DNA from: Bdellovibrio svalbardensis
Lineage (GTDB): Bacteria > Bdellovibrionota > Bdellovibrionia > Bdellovibrionales > Bdellovibrionaceae
Length of the DNA stretch: 64,000 nucleotides
NCBI RefSeq assembly: GCF_029531655.1
Contig: NZ_JANRMI010000001.1
Location: 620,001-684,000, forward strand
Direction: 5' to 3'
The notes beneath the pieces were generated by a model, which saw nothing but the letters and a program-made list of their open reading frames with translations, made no database searches and was not told the origin of the DNA. Shown here piece by piece: positions 24,923 through 64,000 of this stretch (positions are counted from its first letter, which is position 1; each line of letters begins with the position of its first letter). The translations under genes were made by a program, and so were the position numbers.

Positions 24923-25007
24923 AGCACCTATCTATCGGAATTTTCTATCAATTAATTCAGTGTTCTTGTTTCACTCTGCGAGAATCAGGACTAAGGTCGC
25001 TGTCATG

Positions 25008-25029
25008 TCTTTGTCAGGCCTGACAAAGA
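25008..25029. promoter_or_regulatory. 22-bp perfect palindrome in front of the flagellar operon
   Basis: The half-site TCTTTGTCAGG (25008-25018) is followed directly by its exact reverse complement (25019-25029). It lies in the 185-bp gap between the divergent mla operon and the TPR-flagellar operon. It could be an operator or, in RNA, a short hairpin. The core TGTCAGG recurs once upstream of the metallopeptidase at 51272. Confidence 0.5.
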
Positions 25030-25107
25030 TTCTATGAAACTTTTTGCCCATCTTGAACATATTTGCCAATAGACCTTAGAAAGGGGTGGCATCCTCTGTG
25101 CATTGGC

Positions 25108-27909
25108 ATGGTGAAGGGAAAAGGGGTTCAAGGAGTGAACGCTTTACGTAATGTTCTTGTGGCAGGATGCCTGATCTTTAGTCTAGTTCCAGCATTGGCG
25201 GCGTCCGTCAATGGCGCCATTAGTTTTCAAGGTGACACTGTTCATCTTGAGCTTTCGGGGCAACAAAATTGGGACTACGACGTGAAACGCAGTGAAAGCA
25301 AAGGCAAGACTGTTGTTGAGATGACGGTTCCTGCGCTTGATGACAGCACAGTTCAAGCTTTGAATAATTTTAAAAGCGAAATGGTGACTCAAGTTTCAGT
25401 GGATCGCAAAGGTCCCGATGGCAAGTACTTGGTTTACTTCACATTATCCGGTGCCAGCATTGATACTTTTGATTATTTGACGGATCAGCCATCACGTTTG
25501 ATCGTCGACTTTTATGTGAATCCTTCAGCAAAAGCGGATAAGAAATCCGTTGCGAAAAAAGAACCAACAACAAAAGCAGATTCAGCAAAGTCATCGAAAG
25601 CATTGGCTAAAAATAAAACTGATAAAACCAGAACGCCAGCGACTGCGGATGCTCTTGCCATTGCAGATCAAGGTGCTGCGGTCGCTCTAAATGATTCGGC
25701 GGCTCAAAGAGGCATTTTTGATGGTGGCGATCCCAACTACGAACGCTTCACGATCAAGCCTTATGATATTAAGGAAGAGTCAGTCATTCGTGCCAAAGAT
25801 AACTATTATATCCCATTCCCGATGCTTGAGACCCCGGTGTCTTATTGGGAAAAGCTTAAGAACACTCCGACAATTTATGAAATCTCTCCGAAGCCGACGG
25901 ACGAGAATAAGCAAGCTCGATTGCTTCTGACTTTATTTGAAAAGCAAAGATATGCGGTATATCTGAAAACAGTTCAGTGGTTTAAAGAAAAATATCCGAC
26001 GTCGCAATACAACGAAGTCATCGACTTTATGACTGCGGATGTGCACTTGGCTTTGTCACAAGGTGCTGAGCATGCGAAGAGCTATGAAGATGCCATTCAA
26101 AAATATAAAGAAGCTATTGCGAAATATCCTCAATCACCTTTGGCTGAGCGCACGTCTTTAAAGATTGGCTATCTGGCTCTAGAACGTGGTGATAATCTTG
26201 CCGCTCTTCGTCTGTTCAATGAGCATATTGCGAATAAAAACTTTGGCGGCAAAGAGTCCTTGTCCAAAGACCTTGCGCGCATGGGGTCTGGCCTTGCTTA
26301 CATGAGACTGAACAGATGGGAAGATGCGGTTGCTCAGTATGAAGATATCGAAAAAAATTCCATTCATCGTGATTTAAAAGTTGAGGCAGCTTACCGCCGT
26401 GGTGATGTTTGGATCAAAGCAAAGAACTACGCAAAAGCGACTAGCGAATACCAAAATGCATTGAAGAAATATCCTGAAGGTCAAACCTTCTTCCCGAATG
26501 CCTATTACAATCAGGCGGAGTCTTTGTTTGGAATGCAGAAGTATCCGCAAAGTTTGGATTTGTATCGCGAATTTGTAAAAAAATTCCCATCCAGCGAACA
26601 CGCACCATTTGCGATGACTCGCATGGGTGAATTGCTGGAAATCCTGGGCGCGGATAAGTCTCGCGTGATGGGCGCCTATCTTGAAACTTATTTCCGCTAT
26701 GGTGAAAATCCAAGTGCGGTGATTTCACGTTTGCGTCTGCTGTCAACCCGTATGAAGGGCATGAAACCAAAAGAGACGGATAATGCAGTAAAAGAAATCA
26801 TGTCTTTGGCAAAGAAAGTGGATCTTCCAAATATCGAACAATTCGCAACTGTCATGGTGGCGGATGGTTACACCCAACGTGGTGAATTTGATAAATCTAT
26901 TTCACTGCTTTCAAAATACTACAAAGAGCATCCAACGAGCGTTGATATTCCTTTGATGACTCAAAGGATTGTGACCAATATCAACAACAAGCTGGAAGAT
27001 CAGGTCAATGATGGAAACTTTATTGGCGCGTTGAAAACGCACAATCAATATTCTGACAGCTGGTTGAAAAACTCAAAACGTCTGGATACAAAATTCAATG
27101 TCGGCCGCGCCTTTGAAATGGCCGGAGTCCCGATTGAATCTGAAAAGTATTATAAAGATGTCCTAAATAGAGTTTATGCGATTCGTGGAACTCCGGAAGC
27201 AAAAGAGATCAGTGTTAAAGAACGAGTTCCTACAGAAGATGAGTTGAATCTGCGCCTTGCTGCGGTTTCCACGAACGAGCAGAAATACAATCAAGCCTAT
27301 GAGTACCTTAAGAATGTAAAGACTCCGGAAAAACTTTCTGAGTTGGAACAGATTGAGCGCGTGAATATCGCAGTTCGTCTTTTGGAAAGACGCGGAGATA
27401 ATGAGTCAGCTATTCGTTATTTGGGCGAGTTGCTTCGCACTTGGAAAGGCCAACCGGAACTTGTCGCGGAACCTTACTTGAAATTGGCGGAACTGCAAAT
27501 CAAACAAGGCAAAAAAGATGAGGCCCTTCAGGCTTTGGGCATGATTGATAAGCTTTCGAAAGATTCTGACCACGTTTCACCGGTCGTTCATGCGAAAGCA
27601 CTGGAATCAATGGGTGATATCTACTTGGCAAAGAACTCCAAAGATCAGGCGATTGATGCTTATCAAACGCTTTTGGAAAAATACGAACAGACGCGTCCGT
27701 TGTCGTCAATTCGCTATAAGTTGGGTCAAATTTATTTCAAACGCGGCGACATGCAATTGGCTGCCGAAACTTGGAATGAATTTAAAGGGGAGAAAAGTGG
27801 TTTCTGGAAGAACTTAGCCCAGGAACAGCTTAAGAACTCTGAATGGCGCGATGGTTATAAGAAATATATTAAACGTATCCCAGCAATGTCTGAAAAAGAA
27901 AGTAAGTAG
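25108..27909 (+). CDS. Exported TPR-repeat protein at the head of the flagellar operon
   Basis: Protein of about 933 aa. ATG 25108 is used; GTG 25135 (AAGGGG 8 nt upstream) gives a tighter signal peptide (NALRNVLVAGCLIFSLVPALA) and is equally possible. The first 120 mature residues form a beta domain resembling AMIN (VHLELSGQQNWDYDV, DQPSRLIVDFYV). A Lys/Ala/Thr-rich linker follows, then a long series of TPR-like repeats (YEDAIQKYKEAIAKYPQSPLAE, YAKATSEYQNALKKYPEGQ, YPQSLDLYREFVKKFPSS, QAIDAYQTLLEKYEQ). AMIN domains bind envelope polymers and TPRs bind proteins. It is 8 nt upstream of the AAA+ gene and so probably part of the flagellar operon. Confidence 0.85.
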   Translation: MVKGKGVQGVNALRNVLVAGCLIFSLVPALAASVNGAISFQGDTVHLELSGQQNWDYDVKRSESKGKTVVEMTVPALDDSTVQALNNFKSEMVTQVSVDRKGPDGKYLVYFTLSGASIDTFDYLTDQPSRLIVDFYVNPSAKADKKSVAKKEPTTKADSAKSSKALAKNKTDKTRTPATADALAIADQGAAVALNDSAAQRGIFDGGDPNYERFTIKPYDIKEESVIRAKDNYYIPFPMLETPVSYWEKLKNTPTIYEISPKPTDENKQARLLLTLFEKQRYAVYLKTVQWFKEKYPTSQYNEVIDFMTADVHLALSQGAEHAKSYEDAIQKYKEAIAKYPQSPLAERTSLKIGYLALERGDNLAALRLFNEHIANKNFGGKESLSKDLARMGSGLAYMRLNRWEDAVAQYEDIEKNSIHRDLKVEAAYRRGDVWIKAKNYAKATSEYQNALKKYPEGQTFFPNAYYNQAESLFGMQKYPQSLDLYREFVKKFPSSEHAPFAMTRMGELLEILGADKSRVMGAYLETYFRYGENPSAVISRLRLLSTRMKGMKPKETDNAVKEIMSLAKKVDLPNIEQFATVMVADGYTQRGEFDKSISLLSKYYKEHPTSVDIPLMTQRIVTNINNKLEDQVNDGNFIGALKTHNQYSDSWLKNSKRLDTKFNVGRAFEMAGVPIESEKYYKDVLNRVYAIRGTPEAKEISVKERVPTEDELNLRLAAVSTNEQKYNQAYEYLKNVKTPEKLSELEQIERVNIAVRLLERRGDNESAIRYLGELLRTWKGQPELVAEPYLKLAELQIKQGKKDEALQALGMIDKLSKDSDHVSPVVHAKALESMGDIYLAKNSKDQAIDAYQTLLEKYEQTRPLSSIRYKLGQIYFKRGDMQLAAETWNEFKGEKSGFWKNLAQEQLKNSEWRDGYKKYIKRIPAMSEKESK

Positions 27910-27917
27910 GAGAGTGG

Positions 27918-28757
27918 ATGTCGTACTTTGATTTTGATGCATTACACATCGAAGACAGAAAAATGAACGAGGCGAAACAGTTGAGCCTTCAGTTGGCGCC
28001 AACTCAAGCCAGTCTTCTGATTGTTGGTGACGCGGGTGTGGGTAAAACAAGCTTGGCTCGTTATATCTATACAAAAAGCCGTTCTCCGCGTCTTTATGTT
28101 TTGGAATGCAGAAACCCCGGTGGTTTTGATTTTTCAAGAGTCGACGGCGGAACGTTGATGATTGAAGACCTGGATTGCGCTTCATCGGCTTTGCAAACTG
28201 AGTTGATGAAATTGGCAGAACGTACGGATGGAACAAAACCTCGTTTCATTTCGACATCACGCCGTGATTTGCGTGCAATGGTAAAGCAAGATCAGTTCCG
28301 TCAGGATTTGTTCTATAAAGTTGCCGTTGTTCATTTGGAGCTTCCTCGTTTGGAAGATCGTTCAGTGGATTTCCAGAATATTGTGAATTTTATTTTGGAA
28401 GTTTCACAAATCATGCACGGTAAGAGTGGCTTGCGCTTGGCCGCCGATGCCTATTCCCGTTTGAATTCATGGAATTGGCCGGGAAATATTCGCGAACTTG
28501 AAAATGTGATTGAGCGCTCTGTGGTTCTTGCAAAAAATTCAACGATTGGCCCTGAAGCTATTCAGTTTGAGGCCGTCGCTGAGGATATGTCGGTGGATTT
28601 TGCTCCCGGAATGTCCCTTTCTGAGGTTGAGAAGCGTCTCATCTTACAGACCTTGGAACTGACGGCGCAGAATCGCACCCGTGCAGCTCAAATGTTGGGA
28701 ATTAGTATCAGAACTCTGAGAAACAAACTCAATGAATACAAGGAGAGTGTCGTATGA
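27918..28757 (+). CDS. Degenerate sigma-54 activator-like AAA+ protein (no GAFTGA loop)
   Basis: Protein of 279 aa with the plan of a sigma-54 enhancer-binding protein but without its receiver and its sigma-54 contact loop. Walker A is GDAGVGKTS near residues 38-46. Only about 30 residues later comes DGGTLMIEDLD, the Walker B block, with Glu-Asp where the family has Asp-Glu. The GAFTGA loop and its flanking helix are absent. Sensor I (FISTSRRDL), the arginine-finger region (FRQDLFYKV), sensor II (WPGNIRELENVIERS) and a C-terminal Fis helix-turn-helix (RTRAAQMLGISIRTLRNKL) are kept. The flgB ATG overlaps its stop (ATGA). It may be a DNA-binding modulator rather than a true sigma-54 activator. 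Confidence 0.88.
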   Translation: MSYFDFDALHIEDRKMNEAKQLSLQLAPTQASLLIVGDAGVGKTSLARYIYTKSRSPRLYVLECRNPGGFDFSRVDGGTLMIEDLDCASSALQTELMKLAERTDGTKPRFISTSRRDLRAMVKQDQFRQDLFYKVAVVHLELPRLEDRSVDFQNIVNFILEVSQIMHGKSGLRLAADAYSRLNSWNWPGNIRELENVIERSVVLAKNSTIGPEAIQFEAVAEDMSVDFAPGMSLSEVEKRLILQTLELTAQNRTRAAQMLGISIRTLRNKLNEYKESVV

Positions 28758-29167
28758 GTGGTGATCTTTTCGATAAAACCACAAATGCCTTAGCGACTTC
28801 CATGCGCATGAGGCAGCTTCGTCACAATGTGACGTCTTCGAACATCGCGAACGCAGAGACTCCGGGATACCATGCGAAAAAAATGGATTTCGAAGAGGCT
28901 TTGGGGCGCGCTCTGGACATGGATGGCGCAAACGGTCTGAGCACTAGCAGCAAAGAGCACTTTGCAGTGGGTGGTGTATCCGTTGCCAAGACCCGTCCCG
29001 ATATTTACGAGAACCCTGAAGGGGCCGTGAATAATGACGGTAATACCGTAGACCTTGAGAAAGAAATGTCGGCTTTGTCAGAGAATGCGATCATGTACAA
29101 AACGGCACTTCAATTGATCAATAAAAAAATGGCGGCACTTAAATACGCAGCGGGCGACGGTCGGTAG
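28754..29167 (+). CDS. flgB: Flagellar basal-body rod protein FlgB
   Basis: Proximal rod subunit of the flagellum, 137 aa, normal length. The N-terminal rod signature is RHNVTSSNIANAETPGYHAKKMDFEEAL and the C-terminal helix is VDLEKEMSALSENAIMYKTA. It is exported by the flagellar type III system. Its ATG overlaps the stop of the AAA+ gene, with AGGAGAG upstream, indicating translational coupling. First of the structural genes in the operon. Confidence 0.96.
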   Translation: MSGDLFDKTTNALATSMRMRQLRHNVTSSNIANAETPGYHAKKMDFEEALGRALDMDGANGLSTSSKEHFAVGGVSVAKTRPDIYENPEGAVNNDGNTVDLEKEMSALSENAIMYKTALQLINKKMAALKYAAGDGR

Positions 29168-61378: not shown

Positions 61379-61380
61379 TT
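61346..61380. terminator. Strong bidirectional terminator
   Basis: Stem GCCCCGG/CCGGGGC (61355-61373) with a 5-nt loop, flanked by nine A and seven T. It ends the sigma-54 regulator gene on the minus strand and overlaps its stop. Confidence 0.88.
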
Positions 61381-62905
61381 AGTTTACGTAGTCTTTGGCG
61401 ACGATGCCGTATTTTTCGATTTTTCGAAGAAGTGTTTTCTTCGGGATATTTGCGTGAAGGGCCGTTTGATTGATGCGGCCTCGGAATGTTTTAAGAGCTT
61501 TGATGATGAACTCTTTTTCGAAGGCTTCTTTTTGGGCGTTGAAATCCAAGTTTTCGCTTCCAGTGAACGGCACCAGTTCTTCGCCATCCAGATCTGCAGA
61601 ATCGTCACCAAGATCCGCATCTTCATCATCACCTAATGTTGCGTGTGCTTTTGCTGCCGCTGAAACTCCAGCGGAAGCGACAGTTGCGGCAGTCTCCATG
61701 ACCGGCGGAACGTCGATCAAGTTTGTTCCGGTAGCGACAAGCAAAGATTCAGGCAAAGAAGCAATCGTGATGATGTTTGTCATTTCTAGAACGAAAGCGT
61801 GTTCGATCACGTTTTCAAGCTCACGAATATTTCCAGGCCATGCATGCTTTTTCAATACGGACATTGCATCCGGAGCGATGCCGTTGATGCGTTTGCCGTG
61901 AGCCACGTTGAACTTCTTGATGAAGATGTTCACCATGTGCTCCATGTCGTCTTTACGTTCTGCCAAAGCTGGCAAGAATATAGGTACGACATTCAAGCGA
62001 TAGAACAAGTCTTCGCGGAAAGTTCCCGCTTTGATCATGTCTTCTAAAGGTCTGTTCGTCGCTGCAATGATACGAACGTTGGCAGGGAATTCTCTGTTTG
62101 AACCTACCGGAGTGAAAAGCTTTTCCTGAAGCACGCGAAGAATTTTAACTTGCATGAGTTGTGGCATATCGCCGACTTCATCCAAGAACAAAGTCCCGCC
62201 CTCAGCATATTGGAATTTTCCGATCTTGCGTTGGTCAGCTCCGGTGAAAGAGCCTTTTTCATGACCAAACAATTCAGACTCAAAAAGATTTTCTGGAATC
62301 GCAGAACAGTTGATTGCCACGAATTTTTCATCTTTGCGGGCAGAGTTGAAGTGGATTGCTTTGGCAACCAATTCTTTCCCTGTTCCTGAAGAACCGCGGA
62401 TCAAAACCGGTGTGTCCACTTTGGCAAGACGGTGAATAATGTTAAACACCTTTTGCATTTGCGAAGTATTGCCGATGATTTTGCGACCGGCTTCCACCAT
62501 CACAGGAGCAGAAGCTGCAACATTTGAGATCAAGTTGTGAGCATTCACAGCTTTGTCGATCAACGCCAGCAAGTCTTCGCTGGCCACAGGTTTTGCAAGA
62601 TAGTTGTAAGCGCCATCTTTCACAGCTTGAATCGCGTCGTTGAGAGTCGCGTGAGCTGTCATGACAATGACGATGATGCCTGGATTGAATTCTTTGATTT
62701 GACGAAGAGCCTCAAGGCCGTTCATGCGAGGCATGTCCACGTCGAGGATCACGACGTCGTAGCTTTTTTCTCCGGCTTTGATTTTTTCCATCGCATTGAC
62801 ACCGTCGAAGGCTTCGTCGATATCAAAGCGTTGAGTGACCGCTAAGGCTGATTTTACTGAAAGTCTTAGACCTTGATCGTCATCGACAACTAGAACCTTA
62901 AGCAT
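61379..62905 (-). CDS. Sigma-54-dependent response regulator (NtrC family)
   Basis: Regulator of 508 aa. Receiver (residues 1-120): VVDDDQGLRL, acceptor Asp in VILDVDMPRMNGL, Lys in NYLAKPVA. AAA+ domain (about residues 145-380): Walker A GSSGTGKE, the sigma-54 loop HEKGSFTGADQRKIGKF (GSFTGA for GAFTGA), Walker B GGTLFLDEVGDMP, NVRIIAATNRPL, FREDLFYRLNV and HAWPGNIRELENVIEHA. A 60-residue Ala/Asp-rich acidic linker precedes a Fis helix-turn-helix at the end (INQTALHANIPKKTLLRKIEKYG). It starts inside the last codons of the kinase gene (8-bp overlap), which is its cognate partner. Confidence 0.95.
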   Translation of the reverse strand: MLKVLVVDDDQGLRLSVKSALAVTQRFDIDEAFDGVNAMEKIKAGEKSYDVVILDVDMPRMNGLEALRQIKEFNPGIIVIVMTAHATLNDAIQAVKDGAYNYLAKPVASEDLLALIDKAVNAHNLISNVAASAPVMVEAGRKIIGNTSQMQKVFNIIHRLAKVDTPVLIRGSSGTGKELVAKAIHFNSARKDEKFVAINCSAIPENLFESELFGHEKGSFTGADQRKIGKFQYAEGGTLFLDEVGDMPQLMQVKILRVLQEKLFTPVGSNREFPANVRIIAATNRPLEDMIKAGTFREDLFYRLNVVPIFLPALAERKDDMEHMVNIFIKKFNVAHGKRINGIAPDAMSVLKKHAWPGNIRELENVIEHAFVLEMTNIITIASLPESLLVATGTNLIDVPPVMETAATVASAGVSAAAKAHATLGDDEDADLGDDSADLDGEELVPFTGSENLDFNAQKEAFEKEFIIKALKTFRGRINQTALHANIPKKTLLRKIEKYGIVAKDYVN

Positions 62906-64000
62906 GAATACCCCCGTGCTTGATTGGCAGTTCTACCGTAAAAGTGGATCCATTTCCATAGTTTGATTCTACGAAGATGTTTCCCTGGTGTAGCTCTGTA
63001 AAATATTTAGCCAAGTAGAGCCCTAACCCCGAACCCTTGATAGGTGAACTCTTGGCATTTTTACTTCTAAAAAATTTCATAAAGATATTGTTAAGCTCTT
63101 CAGCTGGAATACCTGGTCCTTGATCGGCAACTTGGATGACGACTTTCTCGCCTTTTTCCTCGCTGCTCACCATGATTTTCGTGTCTTCCGGTGAATACTT
63201 GATGGCGTTCTCGACCAGGTTTGAAAGAACCTGCTTCATCAGATCAGAATCCATAGGAATCGGGAACATCGGCTCAAGCTCTGAAACGATTTGAATGCGT
63301 TTTACCTTCGCCAGGAACTCATGCTTGCGGATCACTTCTTTAAGAACGTTGTTGATGTCCTTGCTTTGCAGATGAAGCTGAACGCCTTCGCTTTCAATGC
63401 GACCGTAATTGAGGATGGCACTGATAAACTTTAATAGATCATCGGCAGAGTGCTTGATGGTATCGACTGCTTCGCGCTGCTGGGAGCTGATGGCATTCGT
63501 GTCGGTCAGGATGACGTCTGTCATTCCTTGAATCCGCGCAATCGGTGTTTTCAAATCATGGGACATCATCGAGATAAAGTTTGTTTTAAGCTCTTCAACT
63601 TGGCTCAAGAGCTTATTTTTTTGATAGTATTCCCAGCTACGGCGATTCTCGACAATCAAACGATAGGGGATGAAGAAGTAATAACACAGGAAGATAGCAA
63701 GAACCGGAGCTGCCATGGGGATCCAAACACCCAAAGGCCAGAAGGCCACATAGCAAAGAACTGTGAAACCCAGAAGTGTTTCACCTAAAAGCAGCAAGCC
63801 CGCAGTGGGTTTCATGCTGAGAACAACGTGAATCGTCAAGATAGAGATAAAAAGAATCAAAACTGCATTGAGCCAGGTCGGAGCCATGCGCGGGGCTGAG
63901 TTCAAGATCATCGTATCGAACATATTGGCGTGCATCTCTGCCGAAGGCATCGCCATGATTTCGCGGGAGTAAGGGGTCAGAATATAATCGCGTGAAGTTT
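62898..64000 (-). CDS. Sensor histidine kinase with CHASE2-like N-terminus, 5'-truncated by the window
   Basis: The frame is open beyond the right edge, so the start is outside; an apparent ATG at 63956 is internal. The visible N-terminal piece (about TSRDYILTPYSREIMAMP, then SAEMHANMFDTMI) resembles the end of a CHASE2 extracellular sensor. Then come about three hydrophobic helices (LNAVLILFISILTIHVVLS and following), a HisKA box FISMMSHDLKTPIARIQGM, N box VLSNLVENAIKYSPEDT, D box VADQGPGIPAEE and G box GSGLGLYLAKYFTELHQGN. The gene overlaps the following sigma-54 regulator by 8 bp and is its likely partner. Confidence 0.88.
   Translation of the reverse strand, partial: TSRDYILTPYSREIMAMPSAEMHANMFDTMILNSAPRMAPTWLNAVLILFISILTIHVVLSMKPTAGLLLLGETLLGFTVLCYVAFWPLGVWIPMAAPVLAIFLCYYFFIPYRLIVENRRSWEYYQKNKLLSQVEELKTNFISMMSHDLKTPIARIQGMTDVILTDTNAISSQQREAVDTIKHSADDLLKFISAILNYGRIESEGVQLHLQSKDINNVLKEVIRKHEFLAKVKRIQIVSELEPMFPIPMDSDLMKQVLSNLVENAIKYSPEDTKIMVSSEEKGEKVVIQVADQGPGIPAEELNNIFMKFFRSKNAKSSPIKGSGLGLYLAKYFTELHQGNIFVESNYGNGSTFTVELPIKHGGIHA

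Follow-up and report, generated by a model that had tools for sequence, protein, structure and literature searches.

Loss of the sigma-54 contact loop and conservation of the DNA-binding domain in an FlbD-type flagellar operon protein of the Bdellovibrionaceae

The second gene of a flagellar operon in Bdellovibrio svalbardensis encodes a protein that is built like an activator of sigma-54 promoters and is without the loop by which such activators make their usual contact with sigma-54. The locus raises the question of what role, if any, such a protein can have for the operon in which it is encoded, and whether its condition is an error of sequence, a relic or a new kind of regulator. Our literature search found no paper describing this flagellar-operon gene. 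The features of the gene are as follows, numbered within the window, i.e., the whole 64-kb stretch of DNA that was analysed.

27918..28757, + strand: loop-less FlbD-type bEBP-like protein, 279 aa, gene 2 of the flagellar operon
28005..28085, + strand: Walker A strand and helix, residues 30-56, GDAGVGKTS
28107..28151, + strand: short stretch CRNPGGFDFSRVDGG where orthologues have loop L1/GAFTGA
28152..28172, + strand: degenerate Walker B, TLMIEDL (Glu-Asp)
28611..28748, + strand: Fis-type HTH, residues 232-277, LGISIRTLRNKLNEY (Pfam HTH_8, 4.6e-14; core invariant in 56/56)
28754..29167, + strand: flgB, its start overlapping the stop of the 279-aa gene (ATGA)

The 279-aa protein and its orthologues

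A sequence-only reading of the window had described this ORF as an activator-like protein without the loop, and the ORF, the absence of the loop, the Glu-Asp Walker B, the Walker A, the sensor II and the Fis-type HTH are all present as it claimed. Its motif list holds for Walker A, which is intact and of the GK[ST] type (GDAGVGKT), and for sensor II (GNIRE); it fails for sensor I, which has Arg instead of Asn (ISTSRRD), and holds in part for the arginine-finger region (FRQDLFYK), where one of the two Arg is kept and the second is Lys. The Walker B sequence is non-canonical (LMIEDLD). Coupling to flgB was borne out by the ATGA overlap of the flgB start (28754) with the stop of the 279-aa gene, and the 13 flagellar genes said to lie downstream correspond to 13 ORFs up to flgE, two of them unnamed. 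Pfam recognizes a sigma-54 activator domain in two pieces, an AAA lid and the Fis-type HTH. There is also a match above cut-off (59 bits) to Sigma54_activ_2 (PF14532), a domain family to which no role is assigned, whose profile has 138 positions as compared to 168 for PF00158, and which full orthologues match too. An AlphaFold2 model from an alignment of orthologues shows the AAA+ fold, lid and HTH at a mean pLDDT of 89; the position of the orthologues' GAFTGA helix and loop is taken by a short stretch, and the model's Foldseek neighbours are NtrX, ZraR, NtrC1, FlrC, FleQ and VpsR.

The gene order (TPR gene, orthologue of the 279-aa gene, flgB, flgC, fliE, fliF, fliG) is shared throughout the order, and a search for orthologues at the same position found that those of other families look like ordinary activators and carry the full loop: outside the Bdellovibrionaceae the proteins are about 310-335 aa long and 18 of 19 have GxFxGA. 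Within the family, by comparison, none of 56 orthologues has the loop and none has a canonical Walker B. The Asn residues of the switch and of sensor I are absent throughout, and Walker A is found in 46 of the 56. As full-loop orthologues occur only outside the family, the loop loss is a derived one, and the original observation was not itself wrong. A frame or assembly error, which had been named as a possible source of the missing loop, is ruled out, since the other genomes of the genus that hold this locus likewise encode the loop-less protein at that position. The Bdellovibrionaceae orthologues form one clade in a FastTree phylogeny with midpoint rooting, in which the support for this clade (0.62) and for the early branches is weak. 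The single exception among the 19 (G045, of another family; L093 6404-7351) has NGF-GNG where others have GAFTGA and a non-canonical Walker B with KD, and it keeps the HTH; judged from its sequence, it is an independent decay.

The two halves of the protein have had different histories. Identity of the AAA+ domain between genera is 29% in the family versus 59% in other families, and that of the HTH is 72% versus 75%; the HTH core ISIRTLRNK, which is identical to that of Caulobacter-type FlbD, occurs in 56/56 family orthologues. A comparison within the genus, with synonymous sites near saturation, gave a pN/pS of 0.18 for the whole gene, 0.17 for the AAA+ core and 0.07 for the HTH, values that are similar to those of neighbouring flagellar genes. 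By this measure the gene is under purifying selection within the genus, and the overall and HTH values count further against a frame error. What the alignments show is that the sigma-54 contact and the canonical ATPase motifs have been lost, as a derived condition, and that the DNA-binding domain has been conserved.

Erosion of the AAA+ domain and loss of the gene

In one genus (g3, 14 genomes) the erosion has gone further. Ten of its genomes encode proteins of 233-241 aa that lack the loop, Walker B and what lies between them, and the other four (L348, L350, L351, L336) encode proteins of 137-141 aa in which the whole AAA+ core is deleted, leaving a lid remnant and the HTH. These shortest orthologues retain the overlap with flgB, and the two that were run against Pfam match essentially HTH_8 only, so that from their sequences they appear to be nearly stand-alone Fis-type proteins. 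Finally, the gene is absent from 8 of 64 Bdellovibrionaceae genomes (G026, G029, G031, G033, G062, G063, G068, G082), in which the TPR gene leads directly into flgB; G042, of another family, is likewise without it. Because the flagellar operon is in place in these eight, the gene is not essential to flagella. Throughout the order, the TPR gene adjoins either an orthologue of the 279-aa gene or flgB.

This series bears on the roles that had been proposed for the protein. The idea that it no longer makes the usual contact with sigma-54 is supported by the missing loop. That it acts as a DNA-binding ATPase stands as to its DNA-binding look and finds no support as to the ATPase: the canonical Walker B, switch Asn and sensor I Asn are absent family-wide and four species have dispensed with the entire AAA+ core while retaining the HTH, which suggests that ATPase activity is not what is conserved in the family. 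For a structural organiser of flagellar synthesis we found no evidence. An adaptor, by which the protein would tether DNA and mix its AAA+ fold with that of a full activator supplying the loop and ATP hydrolysis, is consistent with the high confidence of the predicted fold, with the 46 intact Walker A motifs, with purifying selection on the core within the genus and with the existence of a conserved full activator (see below); we nonetheless consider this hetero-oligomer unlikely, as the core on which it would depend erodes between genera and is wholly gone from the same four species, in which the HTH stays. Decay into a functionless relic, to which the erosion of the AAA+ part and the eight losses from otherwise intact operons might point, is less likely still, given the pN/pS values and an HTH core that is identical in every family orthologue.

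The promoter region and a candidate operator

A DNA-binding protein calls for a site, and the region ahead of the operon contains the following elements.

24998..25027, no strand assigned: enhancer-like site CGCTGTCATGTCTTTGTCAGGCCTGACAAA, start 89 bp before the -24 element
25039..25067, + strand: box B ACTTTTTGCCCATCTTGAACATATTTGCC, family-specific, FlbD-operator-like, between enhancer and promoter
25086..25102, + strand: sigma-54 -24/-12 promoter GTGGCATCCTCTGTGCA of the flagellar operon
25063..27909, + strand: TPR protein, first gene of the operon, with its called start upstream of the promoter

The called start of the TPR gene (25063) is too early because the sigma-54 promoter sits at 25086-25102; from the sequence, a GTG at 25135 is probably the true start. 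In both groups, family and other families, nearly every genome has a sigma-54 -24/-12 promoter ahead of the TPR gene, as do most of those without the 279-aa gene, so that the possibility of its having been lost together with the loop was rejected. Loss of sigma-54 itself from the family was rejected as well: rpoN was detected in all 54 genomes of good quality, and of 60 genomes 58 gave a hit; the other two are incomplete assemblies. The flgF operon has a sigma-54 promoter too, in both groups, and at flagellin genes simple patterns, in a search that missed some flagellin ORFs, detected none in either group. In two genomes (G009, G038) fliF was not found though flagellin genes are present, probably because of assembly gaps.

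The enhancer-like site contains a perfect palindrome, TTTGTCAGGCCTGACAAA, with a TGTCA half-site. In most family genomes, sites of the form TGTCA-N4-TTTGTC..GAC start 88-90 bp ahead of the -24 element or are displaced from there by roughly one helical turn, and they score above threshold in 34 of 38 genomes with the gene, in 3 of 6 family genomes without it and in 8 of 17 from other families. Their persistence in half of those gene-less family genomes weakens the case for the palindrome as the private site of the 279-aa protein. Since promoter and enhancer are kept, also in some gene-less genomes, another full activator must work there, and likewise at the flgF promoter. A candidate driver of the operon, on sequence comparison, is a 361-aa activator with an intact GSFTGA (L199 7035-8120; in this organism's own genome at about C1:1017034-1018119), which has a flagellin gene and a xerC-like gene in its neighbourhood and is 66-78% identical across the families checked, including the gene-less G029 and G026. 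For G042 no close orthologue was recovered, the one match in the vicinity of the position inspected being at 43%. Two further observations concern full activators: G039 has a divergent copy (45%) of the 361-aa protein, with neither fliF nor flagellin found in that genome, and the window itself encodes on its minus strand (61379-63956) a full receiver-type sigma-54 activator of 508 aa with GSFTGA, which adjoins a 352-aa ORF.

Box B was first spotted by eye, and its own matrix was trained on part of the genomes that were then scored. With one genus left out at a time, it was above threshold in 8 of the 12 gene-bearing genera, in none of the 6 that lack the gene and in none of 17 genomes from other families (Fisher p 0.011, uncorrected for phylogeny). 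A stringent form of the pattern has one convincing copy in the organism's own genome; some gene-bearing genomes (G027 and most of genus g3) have a weak box B or none. Given the partial overlap between training and tested genomes, a matrix from the alphaproteobacteria provided an independent test. The 279-aa protein and alphaproteobacterial FlbD have an identical recognition helix, LGISIRTLRNKL, and in nearly all of 58 genomes with FlbD a palindrome, GGCAAWWWTTGCCTAG, lies before fliF; by its position this motif is probably ftr4, the site via which FlbD represses fliF (PMC3930126, PMC3096577). A matrix built solely from these GGCAAWWWTTGCCTAG sites scored the enhancer-promoter interval higher by 8.0 in the 12 genera with the gene than in the 6 without (uncorrected for phylogeny), as compared to 0.8 (sd 2.2) for column-permuted palindromic matrices, none of 1000 of which reached 8.0. 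Gene-bearing genera also exceeded the 17 other-family genomes, by 6.2, a difference that 3 of 1000 permuted matrices reached and that is likewise uncorrected for phylogeny. For Bdellovibrio itself the resemblance of box B to ftr is moderate (a score of 7.3, with 48 places in the window as high). Together, these comparisons support a putative FlbD-type operator at the protein's own operon that accompanies the gene and is missing where the gene is missing, and its joint disappearance with the gene is a further point against a functionless relic.

The location of this site also bears on whether the protein might work at other promoters, of sigma-70 or sigma-28 type, in the manner of NtrC from Caulobacter and Rhodobacter capsulatus. 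Such a fate is known for several GAFTGA-less activators (PMC10274813, PMC3162934), and in Bdellovibrio the role of a global attack-phase regulator has been put forward for FliA (PMC3627812). We hold this to be improbable, however, as the best candidate operator lies at the protein's own sigma-54 operon and its stringent form has one good copy in the genome.

A possible autoregulator and its relatives

The reading that we prefer, and to which we give an even chance of being correct, is that an FlbD-type activator has been reduced to a DNA-binding (auto)regulator that tunes or represses its own operon. In the ancestor of the Bdellovibrionaceae such an activator would have lost the sigma-54-contact loop and its ATPase chemistry and kept its DNA-binding end. 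The 279-aa protein would bind box B, between the enhancer and the promoter, and thereby repress or tune sigma-54 transcription that is driven by another full activator, perhaps the 361-aa protein encoded near the flagellin and xerC-like genes. We infer that the regulator is probably a repressor, and in that case it would have retained the repressing half of FlbD's action on Caulobacter fliF. The sequence-only reading had listed a partner or antagonist of a full activator among its proposals, which may come close to this. The broader claim, that the locus records a stepwise conversion (loss of the loop, the ATPase, the AAA+ core and then the gene) into a Fis-type autoregulator on an FlbD-like operator, the repressor half of FlbD being kept and the activator half lost, and that it is a living series for the origin of Fis-type proteins from NtrC-type activators, is one that we advance tentatively, as somewhat short of an even chance.

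Three known systems invite comparison. FlbD, of Caulobacter and other alphaproteobacteria, shares the recognition helix, is coded among early flagellar genes and itself has a repressor role at fliF; its NCBIfam model (NF050807) is the best one for the 279-aa protein, at 183 bits against a cut-off of 750 (a full orthologue scores 409). Unlike FlbD, the 279-aa protein has no receiver domain and no GAFTGA, and its ATPase is degenerate. The GAFTGA-less bEBPs (NtrC of Caulobacter and R. capsulatus, TyrR, DhaR, VpsR) resemble it in their deleted L1, retained HTH and NtrC-type AAA+ domain, the best structural match to it being NtrX of Brucella; but in them the AAA+ domain is largely retained, mostly together with a regulatory domain, whereas at this locus the AAA+ domain vanishes by degrees. 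Fis, lastly, is likened to it by the HTH_8 domain and by the nearly stand-alone orthologues, whereas the 279-aa protein is a locus-specific flagellar gene product that scores 35.6 bits with the Fis model (cut-off 99), on which a 141-aa orthologue scores 26.9.

Activators without GAFTGA are already known singly (PMC10274813, PMC3162934), and the new part is the graded series at one locus, where an ordered succession leads from complete activators to proteins that are little more than an HTH, and the presumed binding site is present or missing in parallel. Here the DNA-binding role of a flagellar regulator appears to have been separated from its motor role. The series would offer a testable case for the origin of Fis-like proteins, and it parallels the descent of Fis from NtrC that was proposed by Morett and Bork (1998), as cited in PMC7166090. 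For the predator's flagellar operon, on which published work has stressed FliA, it puts a name to a candidate regulator and to a sigma-54 promoter.
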